Assembly: GCF_028867935.1 (NCBI RefSeq)
Contig: NZ_JAPQNS010000001.1
Location: 434,001 to 498,000 of the forward strand
Direction of reading: 5' to 3'
Length of the DNA: 64,000 nt
Source of the DNA: Flavobacterium sp. SUN052
Lineage (GTDB): Bacteria > Bacteroidota > Bacteroidia > Flavobacteriales > Flavobacteriaceae
The notes beneath the pieces are model-generated. The model was not told the DNA's origin. It worked only from the letters and a program-made list of their open reading frames with translations, and did no database searches. Every line of letters starts with the position of its first letter. Positions within the stretch are counted from its first letter, which is position 1. The position numbers and the translations under genes are program-made. This document shows positions 53,161 through 64,000 of the stretch, piece by piece.

Positions 53161-53218
53161 ATTTAGCACTTGTTATATACCCTACCAGACCGGGCAGGTT
53201 TGAAAGCGCAAAAGACCC

Positions 53219-53226
53219 TATCTTTG
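53219..53226 (+). promoter_or_regulatory. Bacteroidetes -7 box of the YfhO gene
   Basis: TATCTTTG is an exact TAnnTTTG match. The start codon lies 21 bases downstream. A TTTG is 16 bases upstream, shorter than the 19-base norm. Confidence 0.55.
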
Positions 53227-53247
53227 CTCCTGTTGCCAATTGTAACC

Positions 53248-55842
53248 ATGAATCAAACCTCCCTTTTGCAGCGGCTAAGGCCGCATTCGCTTTTTGTGCT
53301 GGGCTTTTTGCTACTGGCCAGCCTTTATTTTATTCCGGCTTTTCAGGGCAAAGAGCTGCCCATGCAAGACATCCGGCAGAGCTACGCATCGACCATTGAG
53401 TTGCGCGAGTTCAAAAAACAAACCGGCGAATTCCCACTCTGGACAAACGCGCTGTTCAGCGGGATGCCCGCCTACATGATCGCCTTCGACTATCCGTATA
53501 CCTTCGTGGGGCGCTCGGTTGATTTCGTGCTGAACCTAATTCCTCGTCCCGTTAATCTGTTGTTTATCACCATGGTCAGCATGTATTTGCTGCTTTTGGT
53601 GATAGGTCGCGGCAACGCTGATGACGAAGCGTCTGCTCAGAGTGAGAGTCAGTCGTCACGGCGGTGGCTGGCGGCAACAGGTGCGGTGGCTTATGCCTTT
53701 GGAACATATCTGCTGCTGGCTGTTGAGGCCGGACACGTCTCGAAGGTATGGGCTTTTGCCTACGCGCCGGGCGTGTTGGCGGGGGTAATTCTCGCGTTGC
53801 GGGGTAGGTACTGGGTAGGTGCGGCAATCACCGCATTTTTTGCCTGTATGGAGCTAAACGCCAACCACTTGCAGGTAACCTACTATCTCTTCATTCTGAT
53901 CGGAATTTACGTGCTGATGGAAGGTATCGCCCTGATGCGGGCAGGGAAAGCGAAACAGTTAGGTTTTGGACTGGCATTTCTGGCGCTGGCTGGTGGCCTC
54001 GGTGCAGCCAGTTTCAGCAAACGGCTTCTCGTGCTCAATCAATACCAGAAAGAAACAATCCGGGGGCGCTCCGAACTGACTACCAAGACTACCGCCCAAG
54101 CCGATAATGTGTCTACTTCAGATACCACAGTAGCGGCTTCGGCCCCTCCGGCTACCAGCCAGGATGGTTTGGATAAAGACTACGCGTTTAACTGGAGTTA
54201 TGGCAAAGCTGAGGCTCTGAACTTGTTGATACCAAACCTGTTTGGTGGTGGATCGGGTGGCTTAGGTCAGAGTTCGGAGATGTACAAAGCCTTGGTTAAC
54301 AAAGGAATTGACCCCGCTGCTGCCCTCCAATTTGCTGAACTTGGCGCGCCTATGTATTGGGGAGATCAGCCGGGTGTTGGTGGCCCGTCGTATGCCGGGG
54401 CCGTAATGCTATTCCTGTTCGTGCTGGGGCTAACGCTCTCTACCAATCGTATCCGCTGGTATTTACTGGTCAGCGCGCTGCTCATGATCGCCATTGCTAT
54501 GGGTAAAAACCTGCTGTTCGTTAACGGGCCGTTGTTCGATTATTTTCCCCTGTTCAACAAGTTCCGGGCCGTCACCATGACGATGGGCATTGCCCAGTTG
54601 TTTCTGGCTGCTGGAGCGGTGCTCGGAGTGCAGGCTATTATTACCCGCAACCTTACCTTCGATCAGTTGAAACGCCCGCTGGCTATCAGTTTCGGCCTGA
54701 CGGGTGGAGTGGCCCTGATTCTGGCTATTTTGGGTAGTACGTTTTTTACGTTCCAGACGCCCAACGACGTTCCAATTCTGGCCCAGTATTTTGGTGAGCA
54801 GGGAGCTACCGAAATGCTTCGTGGACTCATCAGCGACCGGCAGAGTATGGCCCGCAGCGATTCGTTTCGGTCGTTTATATTCATTGCTTTAGCAGCGGGA
54901 GCCATTTATTTGTTTGTTACCAAGCGGATCAAAGGGGTGATTTTCTTTCCGGTATTGCTGCTGCTGATGGTTTTTGACCTGTTTATGGTTGACAAGCGGT
55001 TTCTGAACAACGGTAACTTCATTCCGAAAACACAGGTAAATTCGGCCTTTGAAGAGACTCCTGCTGATGCCCAGATTCTGACGGATAAATCGCTCAGTTA
55101 CCGGGTGTGGGACCAGACCGGGAGCTTCATGATGGACAACCGCACCTCGTATTTCCATAAGTCGATAGGGGGGTATCATGCAGCTAAACTGCGTCGGTAT
55201 CAGGAGTTGATCGAATACGCGTTCCCCAAAAACACGCTCAATATCTTGAACATGCTGAACGGGAAATACGCCATCATTCAGCCGCAACAAGACCCGAGCG
55301 CTCCACAGCAACAGCCAGCGGCCCCTATTGCCCAGGCCAATCCTGAAGCGCTCGGCAATGCCTGGTTCGTGAAAACGGTACTGACAGTGGCCGATGCTGA
55401 TGCAGAAATGGCGGCTATGAAAACGCTCAACCCCCGCGATTCGATGGTGGTTGACAAGCGGTTCAGCAACCAACTGGCCAATTTGCCCGTACTCGATACG
55501 ACCGGTGCCACAATTAGCCTGACCAAATACATTCCCGATCATTTGACGTACGAAAGTAATGCGCCAACGGAACAGCTAGCCGTTTTCTCGGAGGTTTATT
55601 ACCGGGGTGATTCGGACTGGAACGCGTATGTAGATGGCAAACTAGTGCCGCACATGCGGGCCAATTACGTACTTCGGGCCATGCGGATTCCGGCGGGAAA
55701 ACATACTATTGAATTTAAATTTGAACCCCCTATTGTGGCGCTCGGAGACACGCTCGATTTGATTGCTAATGGCTTGTTATTGGCCTTCATTGCGGGGGCT
55801 ATTTTCCTGAGCACGCGAAAGAAAAAAGTACAAATGGCATGA
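53248..55842 (+). CDS. YfhO-family membrane protein
   Basis: 864 residues from the ATG at 53248; an earlier start at 53170 would add 26 residues before it and looks spurious. The sequence begins with a helix (LFVLGFLLLASLYFIPAF), has about 12 hydrophobic segments up to residue 600, and a soluble beta-rich part (about 600-840), ending in a last membrane helix and basic tail (RKKKVQMA). YfhO-like GT-C-type proteins are thought to transfer sugars to envelope polymers, for example in lipoteichoic acid glycosylation in Bacillus. In Bacteroidota the target is unknown. The stop overlaps the next start (ATGA). Confidence 0.87.
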   Translation: MNQTSLLQRLRPHSLFVLGFLLLASLYFIPAFQGKELPMQDIRQSYASTIELREFKKQTGEFPLWTNALFSGMPAYMIAFDYPYTFVGRSVDFVLNLIPRPVNLLFITMVSMYLLLLVIGRGNADDEASAQSESQSSRRWLAATGAVAYAFGTYLLLAVEAGHVSKVWAFAYAPGVLAGVILALRGRYWVGAAITAFFACMELNANHLQVTYYLFILIGIYVLMEGIALMRAGKAKQLGFGLAFLALAGGLGAASFSKRLLVLNQYQKETIRGRSELTTKTTAQADNVSTSDTTVAASAPPATSQDGLDKDYAFNWSYGKAEALNLLIPNLFGGGSGGLGQSSEMYKALVNKGIDPAAALQFAELGAPMYWGDQPGVGGPSYAGAVMLFLFVLGLTLSTNRIRWYLLVSALLMIAIAMGKNLLFVNGPLFDYFPLFNKFRAVTMTMGIAQLFLAAGAVLGVQAIITRNLTFDQLKRPLAISFGLTGGVALILAILGSTFFTFQTPNDVPILAQYFGEQGATEMLRGLISDRQSMARSDSFRSFIFIALAAGAIYLFVTKRIKGVIFFPVLLLLMVFDLFMVDKRFLNNGNFIPKTQVNSAFEETPADAQILTDKSLSYRVWDQTGSFMMDNRTSYFHKSIGGYHAAKLRRYQELIEYAFPKNTLNILNMLNGKYAIIQPQQDPSAPQQQPAAPIAQANPEALGNAWFVKTVLTVADADAEMAAMKTLNPRDSMVVDKRFSNQLANLPVLDTTGATISLTKYIPDHLTYESNAPTEQLAVFSEVYYRGDSDWNAYVDGKLVPHMRANYVLRAMRIPAGKHTIEFKFEPPIVALGDTLDLIANGLLLAFIAGAIFLSTRKKKVQMA

Positions 55843-57077
55843 AGAGAATAGGACCGCGGATGACGCGAATGGAACGGATTACAACGGATTTTTTAGTAAG
55901 AAATCTGCAAAAATCCGCTTTATCTGCGTCATCCGCGGTCCTACTATTTCTATTCGCATCTTCATCATTTGGCCAATGTACGCCCCGGCTGGGCGAACTA
56001 ACCGGAGCCCTTCATATTCAGCCAACGCCAGTTGGTTGTGTCCCCTTTAGCATCAGTGCGTTAACCACGAACGTGACGAAAACGCAGACCAATGCCCGGT
56101 TTGTATACGAGTATGATGGTCAGAACGAAGCCAAAACAACGACCAGCCCCGTATACACGTATCGGCAAGCGGGCGTATATCGTTTGCTGCAATTATCTGA
56201 TATAGATGGTTTACCCGCTCGTGTGTGTGCTATTGTGACGGTTTATGATACAATACCTCCCTTACTTTCGCTGGTTTCCTGTGGCAGCAGCCTAACTATT
56301 AATGTATCTGCCCCGCCTTTGTCGCCTTATGAGACCTACCAGATTGATTGGGGTGACGGACAAACAGAGCGCTTACCGGCAGCAGAAGCTCAAAACAAGG
56401 TACATACGTATACTACTGGGAACACGTACCGAATCCAGGTAAAAGGTCAATATCAGTTTGTCACCTGTGGAGGCTTGACGACTCGCTCATTCAAACCCGG
56501 CGAACCCCCCAAGCCTCCTGTCATCAGTCGCCTGGAACCCAATGGGAAACAAATTCGGGTGTTTGTCAATAACGATGAAGGTGGCTTATTTGCGCTTGAA
56601 CAGAAGATTGGTTCTGGCGATTTTCAGCGAGTTGCCAGTGGGACACGGGCGGTCAGTAGTCAACTCACTGTCCCACTCGATACAGTTCAAACCAACTGTT
56701 TCCGGCTGGTGCAAATTGACCCTTGTTTTCCTGCTGCAAACTATACTGCTACCTGCTACGAACCGCCGAAGCCCAAACCGCCAGTACCAACAGGCCCAGT
56801 GCTAAACTGGTGGGTTCCTACGGCATTTACGCCCAATGGTGATGGACAGAACGATACGTTTGGAGTTATCGGCGAAACCGACCCCACAGACTTCCAACTG
56901 AGCATCATGAACCGCTGGAGTGTCCTTATTTTTCGAACTACCGACCCTGCCCAGCCCTGGAATGGTACCGTAGCTGGTGAGCCCGCACCAGTAGGATTGT
57001 ACGGTTTTCACGTTCGTAATGGGCGTACCAACTCCGAAAATAGCCAGAAAAGCGGAATGATTTTGTTGGTGCGATAA
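55839..57077 (+). CDS. Gliding-motility C-terminal domain (CHU_C) protein
   Basis: 412 residues, starting four bases inside the YfhO stop codon; a second ATG at 55869 would also keep the export signal. Residues about 26-46 form a signal peptide ending ASSSFGQ, but residues 4-35 are encoded by a palindromic repeat. PKD-like beta domains (about 60-330) with GVYRLLQLSDIDG and YQIDWGDGQTERL follow, then a proline-rich hinge and the CHU_C domain from about 330 (WVPTAFTPNGDGQNDTF), a type B type IX sorting signal. It should be a surface-exported adhesin-like protein. Confidence 0.88.
   Translation: MKRIGPRMTRMERITTDFLVRNLQKSALSASSAVLLFLFASSSFGQCTPRLGELTGALHIQPTPVGCVPFSISALTTNVTKTQTNARFVYEYDGQNEAKTTTSPVYTYRQAGVYRLLQLSDIDGLPARVCAIVTVYDTIPPLLSLVSCGSSLTINVSAPPLSPYETYQIDWGDGQTERLPAAEAQNKVHTYTTGNTYRIQVKGQYQFVTCGGLTTRSFKPGEPPKPPVISRLEPNGKQIRVFVNNDEGGLFALEQKIGSGDFQRVASGTRAVSSQLTVPLDTVQTNCFRLVQIDPCFPAANYTATCYEPPKPKPPVPTGPVLNWWVPTAFTPNGDGQNDTFGVIGETDPTDFQLSIMNRWSVLIFRTTDPAQPWNGTVAGEPAPVGLYGFHVRNGRTNSENSQKSGMILLVR
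55849..55943. repeat. Palindromic repeat inside a coding sequence
   Basis: TAGGACCGCGGATGACGC (55849-55866) pairs exactly with 55926-55943. Inner arms (AACGGATT-like words and AAATCCGC) pair less well. Read in frame, the right arm encodes ASSAVL, the beginning of the signal peptide's hydrophobic part, and the left arm encodes the basic N-terminus. Confidence 0.85.
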
Positions 57078-57089
57078 CCTCTTAACACC

Positions 57090-58193
57090 ATGCATGTAAA
57101 AGCTGCAATTGCTACCGGAACAGGTCAGTTCCGCATCGACACAATTGAGATACATCCGCCACAGGGCGACGAACTGCTGGTTGAACTGAAAGCCGCCGGA
57201 GTTTGCCACACCGATTACGATTCGATGTCGTGGGGCAAACCGCTCGTAATGGGCCACGAAGGAGCGGGTGTCGTCCGTGCCGTTGGCCCAGCAGTGACAC
57301 GGTTTCGTCCCGGCGATTCGGTGATCCTCAACTGGGCAATTCCGTGTGGGCGTTGTTTTCAGTGTCAGGAGGGTAATCAACACATTTGCGAAGTGAATTC
57401 GCCCGTAACCTCAGGTAATCGGGCCAGCGGGGGGCATGCTGACCTAAAGCGCACCACGCTCAAAGGGCAACCCATCGAACGGGCGTTTAGTCTGGGTACG
57501 TTGTCGGAATATACTGTTGTGAGGGAGGCCGCTGCTGTTCAACTGACAGTCGAGATGCCATTTGCGTCGGCTGCAATTGTAGGATGTGGTGTCATGACGG
57601 GGTACGGTTCAGTGGTGAATGCCGCCAAAGTGAAGCCGGGCCGGTCGGTGGTGGTGCTGGGAACGGGTGGGGTAGGCCTAAACGTGATTCAGGGAGCCAG
57701 AATAGCCGGAGCAGGCATGATTATTGCCGTTGATGTGAATTCCAATCGGCTCGACATGGCCCGGAAATATGGTGCCACACACACACTTCAGGCCGACCGG
57801 GCCGATGTTGGGTTGCTCCAAGCTGCCCAACAGGTAAAAGTGCTAACCAACGGACGCGGAGCCGATTATGCATTCGAATGCACGGCCATTCCTGAACTGG
57901 GTGCCGCTCCACTCGCCATGATTCGGAATGCGGGCGTGGCCTGTCAGGTAAGTGGCATTGAACAAACCATTGCCATCGACATGAACCTGTTTGAGTGGGA
58001 CAAAATCTACATTAACCCCCTCTACGGACAATGCCGCCCCGACATTGACTTCCCCATTCTTCAAAAACTCTACGAAAAAGGCGACTTGATTCTGGACGAC
58101 CTCGTCACCCGAATCTACACCCTTGCCGATTTGCAAATTGCCTTCGATGATATGCTGGCTGGCCGAAATGCAAAGGGCGTTATCGTTTTTTGA
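57090..58193 (+). CDS. Zinc-dependent alcohol dehydrogenase (class III/MDR type)
   Basis: 367 residues. Catalytic zinc ligands: C in GVCHTDYDS and GHEGAGVV (E and H). The structural zinc is bound by CGRCFQCQEGNQHIC. NAD(H) binding is by LGTGGVGLNVIQGA. The pattern is that of class III/S-(hydroxymethyl)glutathione-type and related long MDR dehydrogenases. The gene follows the CHU_C gene by 12 bases and precedes an esterase by 51 bases; dehydrogenase plus esterase-D-like hydrolase recalls thiol-dependent formaldehyde oxidation, but no thiol specificity is evident. It may also be part of the adjoining biosynthetic block. Confidence 0.92.
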   Translation: MHVKAAIATGTGQFRIDTIEIHPPQGDELLVELKAAGVCHTDYDSMSWGKPLVMGHEGAGVVRAVGPAVTRFRPGDSVILNWAIPCGRCFQCQEGNQHICEVNSPVTSGNRASGGHADLKRTTLKGQPIERAFSLGTLSEYTVVREAAAVQLTVEMPFASAAIVGCGVMTGYGSVVNAAKVKPGRSVVVLGTGGVGLNVIQGARIAGAGMIIAVDVNSNRLDMARKYGATHTLQADRADVGLLQAAQQVKVLTNGRGADYAFECTAIPELGAAPLAMIRNAGVACQVSGIEQTIAIDMNLFEWDKIYINPLYGQCRPDIDFPILQKLYEKGDLILDDLVTRIYTLADLQIAFDDMLAGRNAKGVIVF

Positions 58194-58244
58194 GTTTGTT
58201 ATTGCTTTTCTTGCTGGTGAGTTGATTGTTACTTTACCAATTAT

Positions 58245-59024
58245 ATGTTCCGAACCATTCGACTCTCTGATCCCCGTTTTGAACACGGGGGATTGCGTTA
58301 TATCACTGTAAAAACGCCTAACCTGCTTGGCCGGGGCGATATAACATACTGGTCACCCGATGGAGTCAGCGATCAAGAGTCCTTGCCGCTTGTGCTTCTG
58401 TTGCATGGTGTATATGGTAGTCATTGGGCGTGGAGCCTGGTAGGAGGGGCACACCGCACCGCCGACCGATTGATTCGAAGTGGACAACTTCCTCCTTTCC
58501 GGTTGGCAATGCCTTCGGATGGGCTTTGGGGGGACGGCAGTGGCTATCTGCCGCACGATGGTCACAATTTCGAAAACTGGATTGTCGACGATGTGCCAGC
58601 AGCTTGCCCCGGTGCTGTGTCGGACCTGTTTATCGCTGGTTTGTCGATGGGTGGATACGGTGCCTTGCGATTGGGGGCCAAACACCCCGACAGATTTCGA
58701 GCCATTGCCGGTCTATCATCCATTACCCATCTCGACCAAATGGCCCTGTTTGTGGAGGAGCCATTAACGGCCTATCGACAACTCAATTCAGTTGATGAAT
58801 CAGTGCTGGATTTGATGGTTGAGAATCAAGAGCGTCTGCCGCCCATTCGGTTGGATTGTGGTACCGAGGATGGACTGCTTGAAGCAAATCGGACCCTGCA
58901 CACAGGCTTGACCGAAGCCGAAATACCGCACGAGTATGAAGAATTCACTGGCGGGCACGAGTGGCCGTATTGGGAAACGCATCTGGAAGATACGCTGCTG
59001 TTTTTCGGTCGATTTATGGTCTGA
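58245..59024 (+). CDS. Alpha/beta-hydrolase esterase (esterase D-like)
   Basis: 259 residues. The nucleophile is in GLSMGG (S near 144), the acid is probably in LDCGTEDGLLEA, and the histidine in GGHEWPYW near the C-terminus, completing a triad. The oxyanion region HGVYGSHWAW is near 47-56. The sequence is of the esterase family including S-formylglutathione hydrolases and tributyrin esterases. It stands between an alcohol dehydrogenase and an epimerase-type reductase on the same strand. Substrate unknown. Confidence 0.88.
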   Translation: MFRTIRLSDPRFEHGGLRYITVKTPNLLGRGDITYWSPDGVSDQESLPLVLLLHGVYGSHWAWSLVGGAHRTADRLIRSGQLPPFRLAMPSDGLWGDGSGYLPHDGHNFENWIVDDVPAACPGAVSDLFIAGLSMGGYGALRLGAKHPDRFRAIAGLSSITHLDQMALFVEEPLTAYRQLNSVDESVLDLMVENQERLPPIRLDCGTEDGLLEANRTLHTGLTEAEIPHEYEEFTGGHEWPYWETHLEDTLLFFGRFMV

Positions 59025-59050
59025 TTTTTTAAATCGTAAAGGGTCTGAGC

Positions 59051-60049
59051 ATGACACATGAAACGGTTCTCGTTACCGGCGCCACCGGTTTTCTAGGCAA
59101 CCGCCTGACTGAAACTCTGGTGCAGCAGAACGTAGCCCGATCAATTATAACAACCGGACGGAACCCAGAACGAGGTAGGCATTTGAGCAAACTAGGAACC
59201 AGGTTTCTTCCCGGGGATCTGCGTGACGCTACATTTGTCGATCAGTTTGGCGCCGGTGTTACGGCCATTATCCATTGTGCGGCTCTATCAGCGCCCTGGG
59301 GATCGTACCAGACGTTTTATGAGCAGAACGTACTGGCAACACAAAACCTGCTTAATCTGGCCGTGCGAAACCGGGTTGAACGATTTGTTTATGTGTCGAG
59401 TCCCAGCATTTATGCCACCCTTGCCAATCGCCTGAATGTCCGCGAAGACGACCCGCTGCCCACGCGCTTTTTAAATGCCTACGCCCAAACAAAATATGAG
59501 GCTGAGCAATTAGTGATTCGCCAGCTGACAGACCACCACATTCCCTACGTGATTATTCGCCCCCGTGCGCTGATTGGTGCGGGTGATACCGTGATTATGC
59601 CTCGACTGCTGGACGCCCAGGCCAGAAACCGTCTGTTTGTAGTGGGTGATGGCCAGAATGTGTGCGACTTGACCTGCGTGGGCAATGTAGCCGATGCTCT
59701 TACACTCGCTTTGAATGCTACCAGCCCAGCGCTAAACCAGATTTACAACATCACCAACGGCGAACCTGTCCGATTCTACGAACAGATTGAGCGAGTTTGC
59801 CAGCGCCTGAATCGGCCATTTGTCCGGCGATCTTTGCCCTACTCGCTGGCTCTTGCTGTGGCTACTGTGCTGGAGAACGTAGCCCCACTGTTAGGTAAAG
59901 AACCGACTCTGACCCGCTACACGCTTAGTCTGCTGGCTTATTCAATGACACTGGATATTACACGCGCGCGAACCTTACTTGGCTACTCGCCCCGGCAAAG
60001 TACGCAGGAAGGTATTGACGAATTTGTCACAGACTGGCGTGGTAACTGA
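59051..60049 (+). CDS. NAD-dependent epimerase/3-beta-HSD-like reductase (OleD-like)
   Basis: 332 residues of the extended SDR type. NAD(P) is bound by TGATGFLG (10-17), the catalytic Y144-x3-K148 is intact, and VSSPS at 115-119 is the SDR serine region. Downstream, IRPRALIGAGDTVIMPRLL and VGDGQNVCDLTCVGNVADA are typical of 3-beta-HSD/OleD-type reductases, where OleD reduces a beta-keto acid. The C-terminal part (about 260-332) is helical and could attach to the membrane. Gaps of 26 and 35 bases to its neighbours suggest one transcription unit. Confidence 0.87.
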   Translation: MTHETVLVTGATGFLGNRLTETLVQQNVARSIITTGRNPERGRHLSKLGTRFLPGDLRDATFVDQFGAGVTAIIHCAALSAPWGSYQTFYEQNVLATQNLLNLAVRNRVERFVYVSSPSIYATLANRLNVREDDPLPTRFLNAYAQTKYEAEQLVIRQLTDHHIPYVIIRPRALIGAGDTVIMPRLLDAQARNRLFVVGDGQNVCDLTCVGNVADALTLALNATSPALNQIYNITNGEPVRFYEQIERVCQRLNRPFVRRSLPYSLALAVATVLENVAPLLGKEPTLTRYTLSLLAYSMTLDITRARTLLGYSPRQSTQEGIDEFVTDWRGN

Positions 60050-60084
60050 TCGGGGGCGGTTCCACACTAAAAATCAACTACCAA

Positions 60085-60894
60085 ATGCAAATCGATCTTT
60101 TTTCTGCCGGGACATGCCGCGCGTTGGGCTGGTTCATGAACCGTTCTGCTCCATTTAGATCGGTTACAGTGCCGGTGGGCGTGGCGTTGATTCATCATCC
60201 AACAGCCGGGCTGATTCTATTTGATACGGGACTGCATCCACGCTGCCTGGCCATTTCGCATTGGTCGCAGGTATTGGCGCATCAGCTTATTCACTTCGAA
60301 ACCACTCCTGCTGATACAGTGGTGAGTTGGCTGTACAAGAAGGGTATAGATCCATCAGAAATCCGGTATATAGTACTATCGCATTACCACAATGATCACA
60401 TGGGTGGCCTGCTCGATTTTCCCAATGCTCAATTTGTTGCATCCCGTGCTGAATTCAAGCGCCTAGCAGAGATTAGTACGTTTCAACAGTCGAGTGCAGC
60501 CTTTAACGTAGCTTTGCTACCCACTGATTTTGAACAACGACTGATGCCTATTGAAGACCTCCCGACGGCTCACCGGCCCGAACTGGCTTCGTTTGGCGAG
60601 ATAAAAGAGGCCTTCCCCAATTTGTTTTTGGTGAATTTGCCGGGCCACACGCGGGTGCAGTTCGGAGCCTATTTGCCAACTGAATCGACGTTTCTGATAG
60701 CTGATGCCTTATGGACAGGTGCTGCTCTGGATGGACCCGCCAAAGAACCGCCCTCTATCGTTCGAGTAATTAAAGACAACTGGCAAAGCTACCGGCAAAC
60801 CATGCAGCAGTTGCGACAGTTCCGAGCTTTGCACCCAAATGTTCGTATATTGGCTAGTCACGATAATCAGGCGTTTGCCATAATGGAACGCTGA
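60085..60894 (+). CDS. MBL-fold hydrolase (AHL lactonase-like)
   Basis: 269 residues. HYHNDH at 100-105 supplies metal ligands, with a later histidine in LPGHTRVQFG and an aspartate in LIADALW. The N-terminal part (DLFSAGTCRALGWFMN, then LILFDTGLHPR) resembles N-acyl homoserine lactonase-type MBL hydrolases that open lactone rings. Between an epimerase-type reductase and an adenylate-forming enzyme, a lactone or thioester substrate is plausible. It starts 35 bases after the previous gene and ends six bases before the next start. Confidence 0.88.
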   Translation: MQIDLFSAGTCRALGWFMNRSAPFRSVTVPVGVALIHHPTAGLILFDTGLHPRCLAISHWSQVLAHQLIHFETTPADTVVSWLYKKGIDPSEIRYIVLSHYHNDHMGGLLDFPNAQFVASRAEFKRLAEISTFQQSSAAFNVALLPTDFEQRLMPIEDLPTAHRPELASFGEIKEAFPNLFLVNLPGHTRVQFGAYLPTESTFLIADALWTGAALDGPAKEPPSIVRVIKDNWQSYRQTMQQLRQFRALHPNVRILASHDNQAFAIMER

Positions 60895-60900
60895 TAGCCC

Positions 60901-62259
60901 GTGTTCTATCCACTCATGCTTATACTCAAAATTCTCTACTATTGGCTTGTTTTTTCGCTTCGCGGGATTCCTTCATCGCGGGCTAAGTTAATGCGGGCTA
61001 ATGAGCGACGATTGAGAAAAAAACTTCGCTGGGTGGTTCAGCAGATTCCGTTTTACCGAAACATAACCGAGCCAAGGCTGGAGTCCTTTCCCGTTATCAG
61101 TAAACCCACATTCAATGCCAATTTTGCCGATCTCAATGTAGCCGGAATCGCGCGCGATGAGGCTTACAAGTTTGCGTTACAGGCCGAACAAACGGGGCAG
61201 TTTCGAGCTAAACTTCGGGGCTTAACGGTTGGCCTGTCAACCGGAACTACTGGTAATCGGGGTGTATTTCTGGTGAACGACACCGAAATTGCCCAGTGGG
61301 TTGCTATGGTGTTTGTACGGGTTCTGCACCTGAATCTGCTTCGTCGGGAGCGTATTGCTTTCGTCTTCCGAACTAACAGCAACCTGTATCAGGCTACCAG
61401 TGTTGGCCTAATCACGATGCGGTTTTTTCCACTTGATCTGGATAACCCCGCCGTACTAAATGGGCTGGCCGACTTCAATCCGACGGTGTTGGTAGCACAA
61501 CCCTCTGCCTTGATTCGGCTGGCAGGGTATAAAAAGCAGGGTACCTTATCCATTGCACCGGGCCGGGTTATCTCTATTGCGGAGGTATTGACTGAGCGCG
61601 ACCGGAGCTATCTGACAAGTATTTTCAAAACCATTATTCATCAGGTTTATCAGTGTATGGAGGGGTTTCTTGCACACACCTGTGAACTCGGAAATATTCA
61701 CGTTAACGAAGATATTGTGCACTGGGAGAAACGATATATAGACCCGGTCGCGGTACCACCGAACGCGGCCCGGCCCGAAAAACGTCGTTATCATCCTGTT
61801 TTGACTGATTTAGCTCGTCAAACACAGGCGTTAATTCGTTACGAACTGAATGACGTTTTGATCGAACCGGATGCTCCTTGCCCGTGCGGATCGCCATTTA
61901 CACAAATTGGACAGATTGAGGGTCGGGCCGACGATGTGCTGGTTTTTTCTAATGAGTCAGGCCAGAAAGTGGTTTTATATCCCGATCTGGTTCGCCGGGC
62001 TGTGTGCGACAGTAGTGACATTATTGTACTGTATGCTGTTTACCAATTGAATTTTCAGACCCTTATCGTATATTTAGATGATGCCTTAGTATCTGATTCC
62101 TCACTGTGCCGAACGGTTCATTCAAACCTGACGGCTTTGCTGATCCAATTCAGAATTTTGGGTATTCTTATTTCTTTTTTACCATATAGCCAGCGCGAGC
62201 CCGAAACCAAGTTGCGCCGGGTGAAGCGAAATCCATCGCTCCCCTACCTTGAAAGTTAA
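60901..62259 (+). CDS. F390 synthetase-like adenylate-forming enzyme
   Basis: 452 residues from a GTG at 60901 (the ATG at 60916 is an alternative). The phosphate-binding loop STGTTGNRG (113-121) is the AMP-forming-enzyme signature; CPCGSPFTQIGQIEGRADDVL (about 322-342) has a CxC and a GRADD hinge as in the F390 synthetase/PaaK type. It should adenylate a carboxylate with ATP, with release or transfer to a thiol. The N-terminal hydrophobic stretch (MLILKILYYWLVFSL) suggests membrane attachment. It is next to the KAS III gene and the MBL gene. Substrate unknown. Confidence 0.85.
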   Translation: MFYPLMLILKILYYWLVFSLRGIPSSRAKLMRANERRLRKKLRWVVQQIPFYRNITEPRLESFPVISKPTFNANFADLNVAGIARDEAYKFALQAEQTGQFRAKLRGLTVGLSTGTTGNRGVFLVNDTEIAQWVAMVFVRVLHLNLLRRERIAFVFRTNSNLYQATSVGLITMRFFPLDLDNPAVLNGLADFNPTVLVAQPSALIRLAGYKKQGTLSIAPGRVISIAEVLTERDRSYLTSIFKTIIHQVYQCMEGFLAHTCELGNIHVNEDIVHWEKRYIDPVAVPPNAARPEKRRYHPVLTDLARQTQALIRYELNDVLIEPDAPCPCGSPFTQIGQIEGRADDVLVFSNESGQKVVLYPDLVRRAVCDSSDIIVLYAVYQLNFQTLIVYLDDALVSDSSLCRTVHSNLTALLIQFRILGILISFLPYSQREPETKLRRVKRNPSLPYLES

Positions 62260-62276
62260 TCGCCCGGGCGATTAAC
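62255..62276. promoter_or_regulatory. Perfect 22-bp palindrome before the KAS III gene
   Basis: GTTAATCGCC and GGCGATTAAC meet around a CCCGGG centre with no spacer, fully symmetrical over 22 bases. The stop codon of the adenylate-forming gene is inside its left half, and the KAS III start is three bases after its end. Suits a dimeric regulator site or a tight RNA hairpin. Confidence 0.6.
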
Positions 62277-62279
62277 ACA

Positions 62280-63287
62280 ATGCTCTCTATGAATCCTTAT
62301 TTCACTATTACTGGCCACGGTCGGTACGTACCCAAAACAGTTGTTACAGCGGAAGAAATCGACCAGACGCTTAAGTTGCCAACCGGCTGGACATTCCGGC
62401 ATACGGGTGTTCAAACACGCTACGTGGCAGACTCCACCGAAAGTAATGCTGAAATGGGCGCAGTTGCCTTACAGCAAGCTATGCAAAGCGCTAGGCTTCA
62501 TCCCAATGACCTTGATCTTATTGTTTGTGCTTCGGGGTCATTCGACCAGCCTGTTCCGTTTAATGCCTGCCTGTTGATGCAGCGCTTGGACTGGGAGCAG
62601 TACCCCATCGCCAGTTTCGATATTGATGCTACCTGTCTGAGCTTTCTGGTTGCCCTCGATGTAGTAACCGGTTTGTTAATGGCTGGTCGCTATCGGCGGG
62701 TGGCTATCGTGACGAGCGAACTAGCATCCCGCTCGCTTGATGCGAAAGACCCCAAGACCTACGGCTTGTTTGGTGATGCGGCAGCGGCTGTTATTCTGGA
62801 ACAGAACGGTAGTGAAACGGGCCTGAGCGTGACGCATCGTAAGTTCGAAACCCACGCAGGTGGAGCGAGTATGGTGCGTGTTGAAGGCGGTGGCAATGCC
62901 CGGCATCCACGACATTATCCCTTTCAGGACGAAGACTATTGTTTCAAAATGGATGCGTTCGACCTGCTCCGGTTTACTATTCCCCGGTTCGATCAGTTTT
63001 TTGGCGACTTTCTGAAAGACAGCCAATTAAAGCCTAATGATTTTGATCTGGTTATTCCGCATCAGGTGAGTCGAGTAGGGCTTGACCATCTGGTTAAAAG
63101 CTATCAATTTAAAGCTGATGCCGTCTGGGCGAACCTTGACCGCTATGGTAACTGCATAGCAGCTTCGTTACCGCTGTCGCTTTCCGAAGCTATCGACGCT
63201 GGCCGATTAAAACCCGGCGGACGCGTCTTGTTATTAGGAACAGCTGCCGGTGTGTCGCTGGGAGCAATGGTGATTGAGAGTCATTAG
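62280..63287 (+). CDS. 3-oxoacyl-ACP synthase III (KAS III/OleA-like)
   Basis: 335 residues; the ATG at 62289 is an alternative start. KAS III fold: the catalytic triad is C119 (DIDATCLSF), H261 (IPHQVSRVG) and N291 (YGNCIAAS), all intact. The N-terminus GHGRYVPKTVVTAEEID with WTFRHTGVQTRYVA is typical of FabH-like enzymes. It can start fatty acid synthesis or condense acyl units in special pathways; with an adenylate-forming enzyme and OleD-like reductase next door a dedicated pathway is more likely. Preceded by a 22-bp palindrome. Confidence 0.93.
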   Translation: MLSMNPYFTITGHGRYVPKTVVTAEEIDQTLKLPTGWTFRHTGVQTRYVADSTESNAEMGAVALQQAMQSARLHPNDLDLIVCASGSFDQPVPFNACLLMQRLDWEQYPIASFDIDATCLSFLVALDVVTGLLMAGRYRRVAIVTSELASRSLDAKDPKTYGLFGDAAAAVILEQNGSETGLSVTHRKFETHAGGASMVRVEGGGNARHPRHYPFQDEDYCFKMDAFDLLRFTIPRFDQFFGDFLKDSQLKPNDFDLVIPHQVSRVGLDHLVKSYQFKADAVWANLDRYGNCIAASLPLSLSEAIDAGRLKPGGRVLLLGTAAGVSLGAMVIESH

Positions 63288-63344
63288 TTGGTTTTTATAG
63301 CTTTTGGCCACCTAATGCTCACGGGTGTAGGATAAGTTTAACAA

Positions 63345-63440
63345 TTGCTGCCGCGAGGGGCTTCGACTCCGCTCAGCCTGACTACAAAATTGAGAGTTCC
63401 CAGTCATGCTGAGCGGTGTCGAAGCCCCTCGCGGCAGCAA
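63345..63440. repeat. 38-bp palindrome with 20-base loop, same family as 53063
   Basis: Bases 63345-63382 and 63403-63440 pair at 36 of 38 positions. The inner core is the same as at 53063-53160 and the loop has similar TTGAGAGTTCC-type sequence, but the outer arm reads GAGGGG/CCCCTC instead of CACAGG/CCTGTG. It lies between the convergent KAS III and TPR genes. Confidence 0.88.
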
Positions 63441-63502
63441 CTCGACTAAATTCATGCTCAATTTATAAATACTTCAGGTGTATATGACTATTTAATGGCC
63501 AT

Positions 63503-64000
63503 CTATTTCCCTTCAATCACCTTCAGATTCTGAATTGCTTCTGGATAATCAGGTTGCAGGGCTATGGCCTTACGAATATCAGTCAACGCGCCTGCTCGGT
63601 CGCCCAAGTTGAACCGACAAACGCCCCGGTTGTGATAGGCAATCGCATCCGCAGGTTTCCAAGAAATTGTTTGGGTATAATCAGCAATGGCAGTTTGGTA
63701 TTGTTTGGCCTGCAACGCGGCAAATGCCCGACTGGGAACAATAAGTGTATCGTTTTGAGGAGCGTATTTCAGGGCTAAGTTGAAACTTGCGAGCGCATCA
63801 ACCGGGCGAACGCGCATGAGCGTAAGCCCCCGATTGTAGTGCGTGTCGCTGTCATCAGGTCTTAAGCGGATCGCTTCGTCAAACATTTTCACGGCTCGCT
63901 CAGGGTCACCTTTCAACCCATACACATTACCAAGGCCATTGAACACCTGGGCCCGGTTAGAGCCATCTTTCACGGCTTCTTCATAAACAGCCAACGCCTT
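63503..64000 (-). CDS. Tetratricopeptide repeat protein, C-terminal part
   Basis: The leftward frame is open from the window end to the stop at 63503; the start lies outside, so only about 165 C-terminal residues are seen. They hold four or five TPR units, for example VFNGLGNVYGLKGDPERAVKMFDEAIRLRPDD and AIAYHNRGVCRFNLGDRAGALTDIRKAIALQPDY, with the consensus W/L-G-Y-A-P pattern. TPRs mediate protein contacts. No catalytic domain is visible in this part and no signal peptide can be judged. Confidence 0.88.
   Translation of the reverse strand, partial: KALAVYEEAVKDGSNRAQVFNGLGNVYGLKGDPERAVKMFDEAIRLRPDDSDTHYNRGLTLMRVRPVDALASFNLALKYAPQNDTLIVPSRAFAALQAKQYQTAIADYTQTISWKPADAIAYHNRGVCRFNLGDRAGALTDIRKAIALQPDYPEAIQNLKVIEGK

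Follow-up and report, generated by a model that had tools for sequence, protein, structure and literature searches.

What a conserved row of genes makes when it combines a chain-forming ketosynthase with a reductase, a hydrolase and an adenylate-forming ligase, and how far it follows the Ole pathways for olefins and beta-lactones, are questions raised by a locus of Flavobacterium sp. SUN052. The locus lies in a stretch of 64,000 nt (NZ_JAPQNS010000001.1, positions 434,001-498,000, forward strand), here called the window, from whose first letter the gene coordinates are counted. A preliminary description had proposed six same-strand genes in it as one Ole-like block with substituted enzyme families. 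Our comparisons indicate that these six open reading frames (ORFs) are not one unit and that the real unit is a cassette of four genes at 59051-63287, which is most likely the source of a genuine, as yet unnamed metabolite. With roughly even confidence, we read the cassette as a four-enzyme acyl-condensation pathway that would resemble Ole up to an activated 3-hydroxy acid while using other enzyme subfamilies. Its genes are:

59051-60049, + strand: OleD-like reductase of the 3-beta-hydroxysteroid dehydrogenase/epimerase type (RED), with OleD NF042422 as best NCBIfam model
60085-60894, + strand: hydrolase of the metallo-beta-lactamase fold (MBL), PF00753, resembling acyl-homoserine lactone (AHL) lactonases
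60901-62259, + strand, GTG start: F390 synthetase-related adenylate-forming enzyme (the ligase, or F390 in gene orders), TIGR02304
62280-63287, + strand: beta-ketoacyl synthase III (KAS III, or KAS) of the CorB/MxnB type and near PRK07204, as judged by PDB matches, residues and tree

Conservation and spread of the four-gene cassette

We scanned an 18-sequence alignment of the ligase over named genomes, which gave 550 places, and kept the 80 most like the alignment. These best 80 of 550 loci come from Bacteroidota and Bacillota, with the addition of one cyanobacterium, and in 71 of them all four genes lie on one strand, ordered either KAS-RED-MBL-F390 (37 loci) or RED-MBL-F390-KAS (34 loci). 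In two further loci (L079 and L091) RED and MBL are fused into one ORF, and the two enzymes therefore probably act together; the RED-MBL order of all 71 complete loci, taken with both fusions, suggests a coupling between release and reduction. The nine loci in which the four genes are not all present as separate ORFs comprise these two fusions, three loci truncated where a contig ends (L045, L057 and L083, the last being the cyanobacterial one, in which MBL and the ligase alone are present) and four real exceptions. Carriers, several of which are named strains, include Paenibacillus, Brevibacillus, Lachnospiraceae from animal guts and free-living Bacteroidota. Co-occurrence of the four genes in other genomes, which the preliminary description had named as the check on its proposal, hence extends to another phylum, the Bacillota.

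When 395 Bacteroidota genomes were drawn evenly, six of them, including the window's own, had the ligase (E-value 1e-40 or better), and the other five all carry the four-gene set. Within the family of genome G247, MBL, ligase and KAS occur together in 11 of 11 loci, with RED seen in 10, the remaining locus being a short one. The four-gene set is far beyond chance, and the cassette is patchy in distribution but mostly stays whole. Pairwise identity matrices of the four genes correlate across 68 loci (r 0.855-0.931), which agrees with joint inheritance, although vertical descent alone would also yield such a correlation. Three genomes of the draw hold second, more distant TIGR02304 paralogs (L109, L110 and L111; open frames of 485-494 aa), and no cassette partners were seen in these short loci; these paralogs perhaps represent another role of the family. 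A control match to TIGR02304 exceeded the cut-off in Deinobacterium.

The ketosynthase and its three partners

The preliminary description had matched the KAS III to OleA. We find it closer to the alpha-pyrone ketosynthases of corallopyronin and myxopyronin biosynthesis, since its strongest matches in the PDB are CorB at 207 bits and 4v2p at 201 bits, the latter being MxnB (PMC5724707, in part), with the best FabH at 142 bits; its identity is 37% to CorB and 35% to MxnB. The best NCBIfam model is PRK07204 (NF005541), at 284 bits under the cut-off of 402, and among other cassette KAS one exceeds that cut-off (L037, 457 bits) and two fall under it (L060 and L064). Against the FabH models the window enzyme reaches 208 bits with TIGR00747 (cut-off 292) and 220 bits with PRK09352 (cut-off 249). 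Two other proteins of its own genome exceed both FabH cut-offs, so that the housekeeping role of FabH is covered elsewhere.

All residue counts given here exclude proteins outside set length limits. The catalytic triad is C119/H261/N291 in the window enzyme, and Cys-His-Asn is invariant in 82 of 82 cassette KAS. OleA relies on a glutamate that stands before a proline, Glu117, to deprotonate the acyl chain (PMC7064751 and PMC4578411, both in part), and we confirmed the segment with this residue in PDB 3row. The corresponding residue is V92 in the window and Ile (54), Leu (26) or Val (1) in the 81 other cassette enzymes, with Glu in 0 of 82. MxnB and CorB likewise have Val there (PMC4578411, in part), and PMC7064751 notes that two of its OleA proteins lack the catalytic glutamate. 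A further position is T322 of MxnB, which its authors mutated at the junction of two substrate tunnels (PMC5724707, in part). It corresponds to T321 in the window and is Thr in 76 and Ser in six of the 82 cassette enzymes, as against Phe, Met or Ile in the FabH rows; Thr or Ser here would fit an enzyme that holds two chains.

We built a KAS tree of 49 rows, in which OleA is represented by one Streptomyces OleA-like protein and PqsD, BioZ, DarB, PpyS and HMG-CoA synthase are absent. Cassette KAS, CorB, MxnB and three likely Chloroflexota proteins form a clade of 43 rows (support 99/99) apart from five FabH-side rows and the OleA-like row, the order of subgroups inside the clade being unresolved. 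Forcing the cassette KAS together with the OleA-like row, a single long-branched one, is disfavored (approximately unbiased test, p-AU 0.012). The window enzyme shows the CorB/MxnB signature of clade membership, Val at the glutamate site and Thr at the T322 position, from which most relatives vary by Ile or Leu at the former and six by Ser at the latter. On the missing glutamate, the tree placement and the constraint test we rejected membership in OleA. A housekeeping FabH was likewise rejected on the scores under both cut-offs, the tree and the two other FabH proteins of the genome; on this point the tree bears out the earlier proposal, which a grouping with housekeeping FabH would have contradicted. 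The cassette KAS place CorB and MxnB inside a wider enzyme family.

The reductase had been described as OleD-like rather than related to sugar epimerases, and this view holds. OleD is the best NCBIfam model for five of five REDs scanned, with 202 bits (cut-off 580) for the window protein and 174-264 bits for the four others, in all cases above sugar epimerases. For comparison, the reductase of an ole-like Streptomyces cluster attains only 76 bits with the same model. The next-best place for RED in its own genome scores 90 bits, as does the nearest PDB match, the putative oxidoreductase 3wj7. The window residues Y144 and K148 belong to a Tyr and Lys pair that is invariant in 70 of 70 aligned relatives, the Ser position being Ser in 19 and Thr in 51. 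A RED tree was tried and set aside with OleD left unplaced, because the single OleD-like row and the SDRs (short-chain dehydrogenases) of the window's own genome are long branches.

The MBL protein shares its superfamily and metal ligands with the AHL lactonases AttM, AiiA and GcL, but lies far under the family cut-offs (AttM, its best NCBIfam model, 62 bits against 390; AiiA, 44 bits against 375). Its nearest models include 4-pyridoxolactonase and AHL lactonases, and its best PDB matches are the Zn-dependent hydrolase 2r2d and lactonases. The HxHxDH motif is followed by H188, D207 and H259, with the metal ligands invariant in 78 of 78 aligned relatives.

The ligase scores 371 bits with TIGR02304, over the cut-off of 251.9; it has no Pfam match at 0.001, and some relatives carry the PF00501 label. 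Its best PDB matches are PaaK-like phenylacetate-CoA ligases. The ANL motifs, including K437, are invariant in 85 of 85 aligned relatives except for one P-loop position (Ser in 71, Thr in 14). Neither BLASTP nor hhalign detected similarity to the one OleC-like ligase compared, that of the Streptomyces ole-like cluster, which together with the TIGR02304 assignment sustains the earlier placement of this enzyme in a subfamily other than OleC. Also as described earlier, the hydrolase beside it is an MBL enzyme instead of OleB: Pfam and NCBIfam scans of the cassette proteins found MBL as the only hydrolase and no OleB, the rest of the genome not having been searched for OleB. Catalytic residues are intact in all four enzymes, as had been noted. 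TIGR02304 is a family named by similarity alone, and no tested function of it was found in the literature searched, as judged by titles and abstract starts.

Predicted pathway and competing explanations

With the Ole and oleACD pathways the cassette has in common a condensing enzyme of the thiolase superfamily, an OleD-like reductase and an adenylate-forming enzyme in one gene row, as well as occasional enzyme fusions (RED-MBL here, OleBC in Ole). It differs in a KAS of the CorB/MxnB type that lacks the glutamate of OleA, a TIGR02304 ligase in place of OleC, MBL in place of OleB, and tailoring genes that are common in its relatives. CorB and MxnB are the nearest solved relatives of the KAS and have the same Val and Thr as the window enzyme; to our knowledge, neither is found beside the three partner enzymes of the cassette. 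MxnB, in contrast, fuses two polyketide chains on carrier proteins (PMC5724707, in part). The literature searched (titles and abstract starts, with most subscription journals outside its scope) gave nothing on the cassette, which is apparently unstudied. Its enzymes are of known superfamilies, and its logic resembles Ole. A separate gene row on the Streptomyces viridifaciens plasmid pKVP2 (L123:5725-10928) contains a KAS III with the Glu-Pro motif of OleA, a glycosyltransferase, a ligase, a P450 and a reductase, and resembles the OleA-GT-OleC-P450-OleD region of A. atraurantiacus (PMC7064751, in part).

From the enzyme families we infer the following steps. KAS III would load an acyl chain on Cys119 and condense it with another thioester that already has an acidic alpha-carbon, either a beta-ketoacyl unit as in CorB and MxnB or malonyl, to give a 3-oxo acyl thioester. 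MBL would then free the acid, or else open a lactone, the OleD-like reductase would turn the 3-oxo into a 3-hydroxy group, and the TIGR02304 enzyme would adenylate the carboxylate for transfer to an amine, an alcohol, a thiol or the 3-OH of the acid itself. Additional enzymes present in many relatives would afterwards attach a head group. The best reading of the product is an activated 3-hydroxy acyl unit, predicted to enter a decorated lipid or small molecule. Sequence shows the four-gene unit and its distribution, the intact active sites, the KAS subfamily, the type of reductase and the tailoring genes in relatives, whereas substrates, the sequence of reactions and the product are predictions.

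Neighboring genes were counted over 85 loci (L024-L108), with family names resting on one or two scanned members each. The most frequent, with the number in the same-strand chain in brackets, are an ATP-grasp protein in 37 loci (37), a family termed fam5 in 22 (22), SDR in 18 (16), a macrolide-type glycosyltransferase in 15 (15), a Rieske oxygenase in 8 (8), DUF3419 in 7 (7) and a sulfotransferase in 6 (5). The scanned ATP-grasp and glycosyltransferase members fall under their NCBIfam cut-offs. The betaine-lipid enzyme BtaA belongs to DUF3419. The fam5 proteins (370-400 aa, for example L047:6107-7240) are conserved and associated with both the cassette and the ATP-grasp protein, recurring with them in three Bacteroidota loci; the members scanned had no Pfam or NCBIfam family and a single PDB match at an E-value of 0.78. 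A fatty-acid hydroxylase lies near the cassette in L063 and a desaturase in L084. No polyketide synthase was recognized among the 16 neighbor proteins scanned, which are a minority of all neighbors. Since the frequent neighbors attach or modify groups on a head, they suggest that the product carries a functional head group and is not a hydrocarbon. The olefin end product raised in the preliminary description is accordingly unlikely, an olefin having no functional head for the enzymes of so many relatives to modify.

More tentatively than the four-enzyme pathway itself, we propose that these loci represent an undescribed class of pathway, spread over Bacteroidota and Bacillota. Its CorB/MxnB-type KAS III, with no polyketide synthase belonging to it, would join two acyl chains, and RED, MBL and the ligase would turn the result into a branched 3-hydroxy acyl core, to which different bacteria may add a sugar, a sulfate, an amino acid or an aminocarboxypropyl group. 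Such a class, if real, would be a new family of lipids or signals. The orphan family TIGR02304 and the PRK07204-like ketosynthases would in addition gain a role through the cassette.

Several points weigh against the acyl-condensation pathway and its decorated product. Four loci that are uncut beside the ligase (L026, L028, L029 and L070) nevertheless lack one or more cassette genes, no such tailoring gene adjoins the window copy, and the related Runella loci L060 and L090 have no recognized one, the one upstream protein scanned there having no family. Other neighbors are unfit for a lipid product, namely an M16 peptidase (4 loci), a sugar nucleotidyltransferase, a polysaccharide deacetylase, GH88, a thioredoxin-like protein, a kinase-LuxR regulator, a beta-propeller and several family-less proteins. 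RED lies far below the OleD cut-off, MBL might just as well be a lactonase or a hydrolase for detoxification, and CorB shares little more than a third of its residues with the window KAS. The Cys-His-Asn residues are also the triad of FabH and so compatible with decarboxylative condensation.

This last residue pattern leads to a rather unlikely, though not far-fetched, alternative in which a FabH-like KAS would join an acyl starter to malonyl-acyl carrier protein with decarboxylation, RED would form a linear 3-hydroxyacyl chain, MBL would release it and the TIGR02304 enzyme would re-activate it for attachment. The triad is invariant in all 82 enzymes, the head-to-head glutamate is missing, and for the window KAS PRK07204 is the one model that outscores those of FabH. 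Yet the KAS groups with CorB and MxnB at 99/99 and not with FabH, and two positions that are Phe in the FabH proteins of the same genome are Val/Ile/Leu and Thr/Ser in the cassette enzymes. We regard as improbable the route of the preliminary description, in which head-to-head condensation and reduction would be followed by beta-lactone formation by the adenylate-forming enzyme and then by hydrolysis or loss of CO2 by MBL. It would account for an OleD-like reductase and for a ligase adjoining a lactonase-like MBL, and oleACD clusters that lack oleB have been interpreted as making beta-lactones (PMC7064751, in part). In three relatives an alpha/beta-hydrolase with weak haloalkane-dehalogenase matches (47-64 bits, cut-off 241) even stands in the chain. 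The route nonetheless conflicts with the absent OleA glutamate, with a ligase that has no detectable similarity to the OleC-like one, and with tailoring enzymes that need a functional group, of which a hydrocarbon has none. Very improbable, finally, is a catabolic or detoxifying operon that would activate and degrade an aromatic or lactone compound, with the PaaK-like ligase and the lactonase as its key steps: the solved relative nearest to the ligase is a phenylacetate-CoA ligase and MBL is nearest to AHL lactonase and 4-pyridoxolactonase models, but KAS III is a chain-forming enzyme. Moreover, beyond the four genes no family occurs in more than 37 of the 85 loci; those that recur often are transferases and ligases, not ring-opening or beta-oxidation enzymes.

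The flanking genes

The two other ORFs of the supposed six-gene block precede the cassette:

57090-58193, + strand: medium-chain alcohol dehydrogenase (ADH), class III-like; an older neighbor, not part of the cassette
58245-59024, + strand: PF00756 esterase; most likely not part of the cassette, and an older partner of ADH

All six ORFs lie on the + strand where the preliminary description had put them, separated by gaps of 51, 26, 35, 6 and 20 nt, and Pfam and NCBIfam scans agree with the families it had named for each, including zinc alcohol dehydrogenase for the first. A scan of 57000-63700 gave promoter and terminator sites no more numerous than in shuffles (6 against 6.2, and 7 against 8.6), and the limits of the operon were therefore judged on spacing and comparison.

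The comparison begins from a YfhO gene at 53170-55842, which is 82-83% identical in genomes G606 and G607, the closest by YfhO among 241 genomes drawn from that order. Both belong to another family group, a likeness that does not fit the kinship assigned to the window's genome (many genomes of 2-6 Mb in one genus), and this assignment may be wrong. In both of these ADH (85-87% identical) comes after the same YfhO gene, and no homolog of the esterase, RED, MBL, ligase or KAS was found in the 19.9-kb stretches read. The esterase does occur further on along the same strand, at a distance from ADH of about 11 kb in G606 and 13.6 kb in G607. In a third genome, G656, a gap of 14 bp separates ADH (79% identical) from the esterase (67%). 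Genome searches of all three gave no ligase match. As these genomes keep both genes without the ligase, ADH and esterase look like an older pair that stands beside the cassette. Among genomes of the family, the esterase is present in 62 of 222 and the ligase in 11 of 222, and in the nine that have both, the two are either separated by more than 1.8 Mb or located on different contigs. On these arrangements we rejected a single block of six genes. The esterase-RED gap is only 26 nt, so co-transcription of the two is possible in the window.

ADH scores 301 bits with the model for NDMA-dependent ADH, under the cut-off of 440, and its class III-like character suggests that ADH and esterase may be a formaldehyde-oxidation pair. 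Between YfhO and ADH the window has a CHU_C (type IX secretion) protein at 55839-57077 that is not there in G606 and G607. In a Microscilla-like genome, a 2911-aa TcA-like toxin-complex gene (L085:12524-21259) is convergent to the cassette, with no sign of a link between them. Directly 3' of the KAS gene, at 63352-63433, lies a palindromic repeat resembling a repetitive extragenic palindromic (REP) element, whose 26-base core, with 0 occurrences for a reversed control, is found 37 times in the genome at up to three mismatches.

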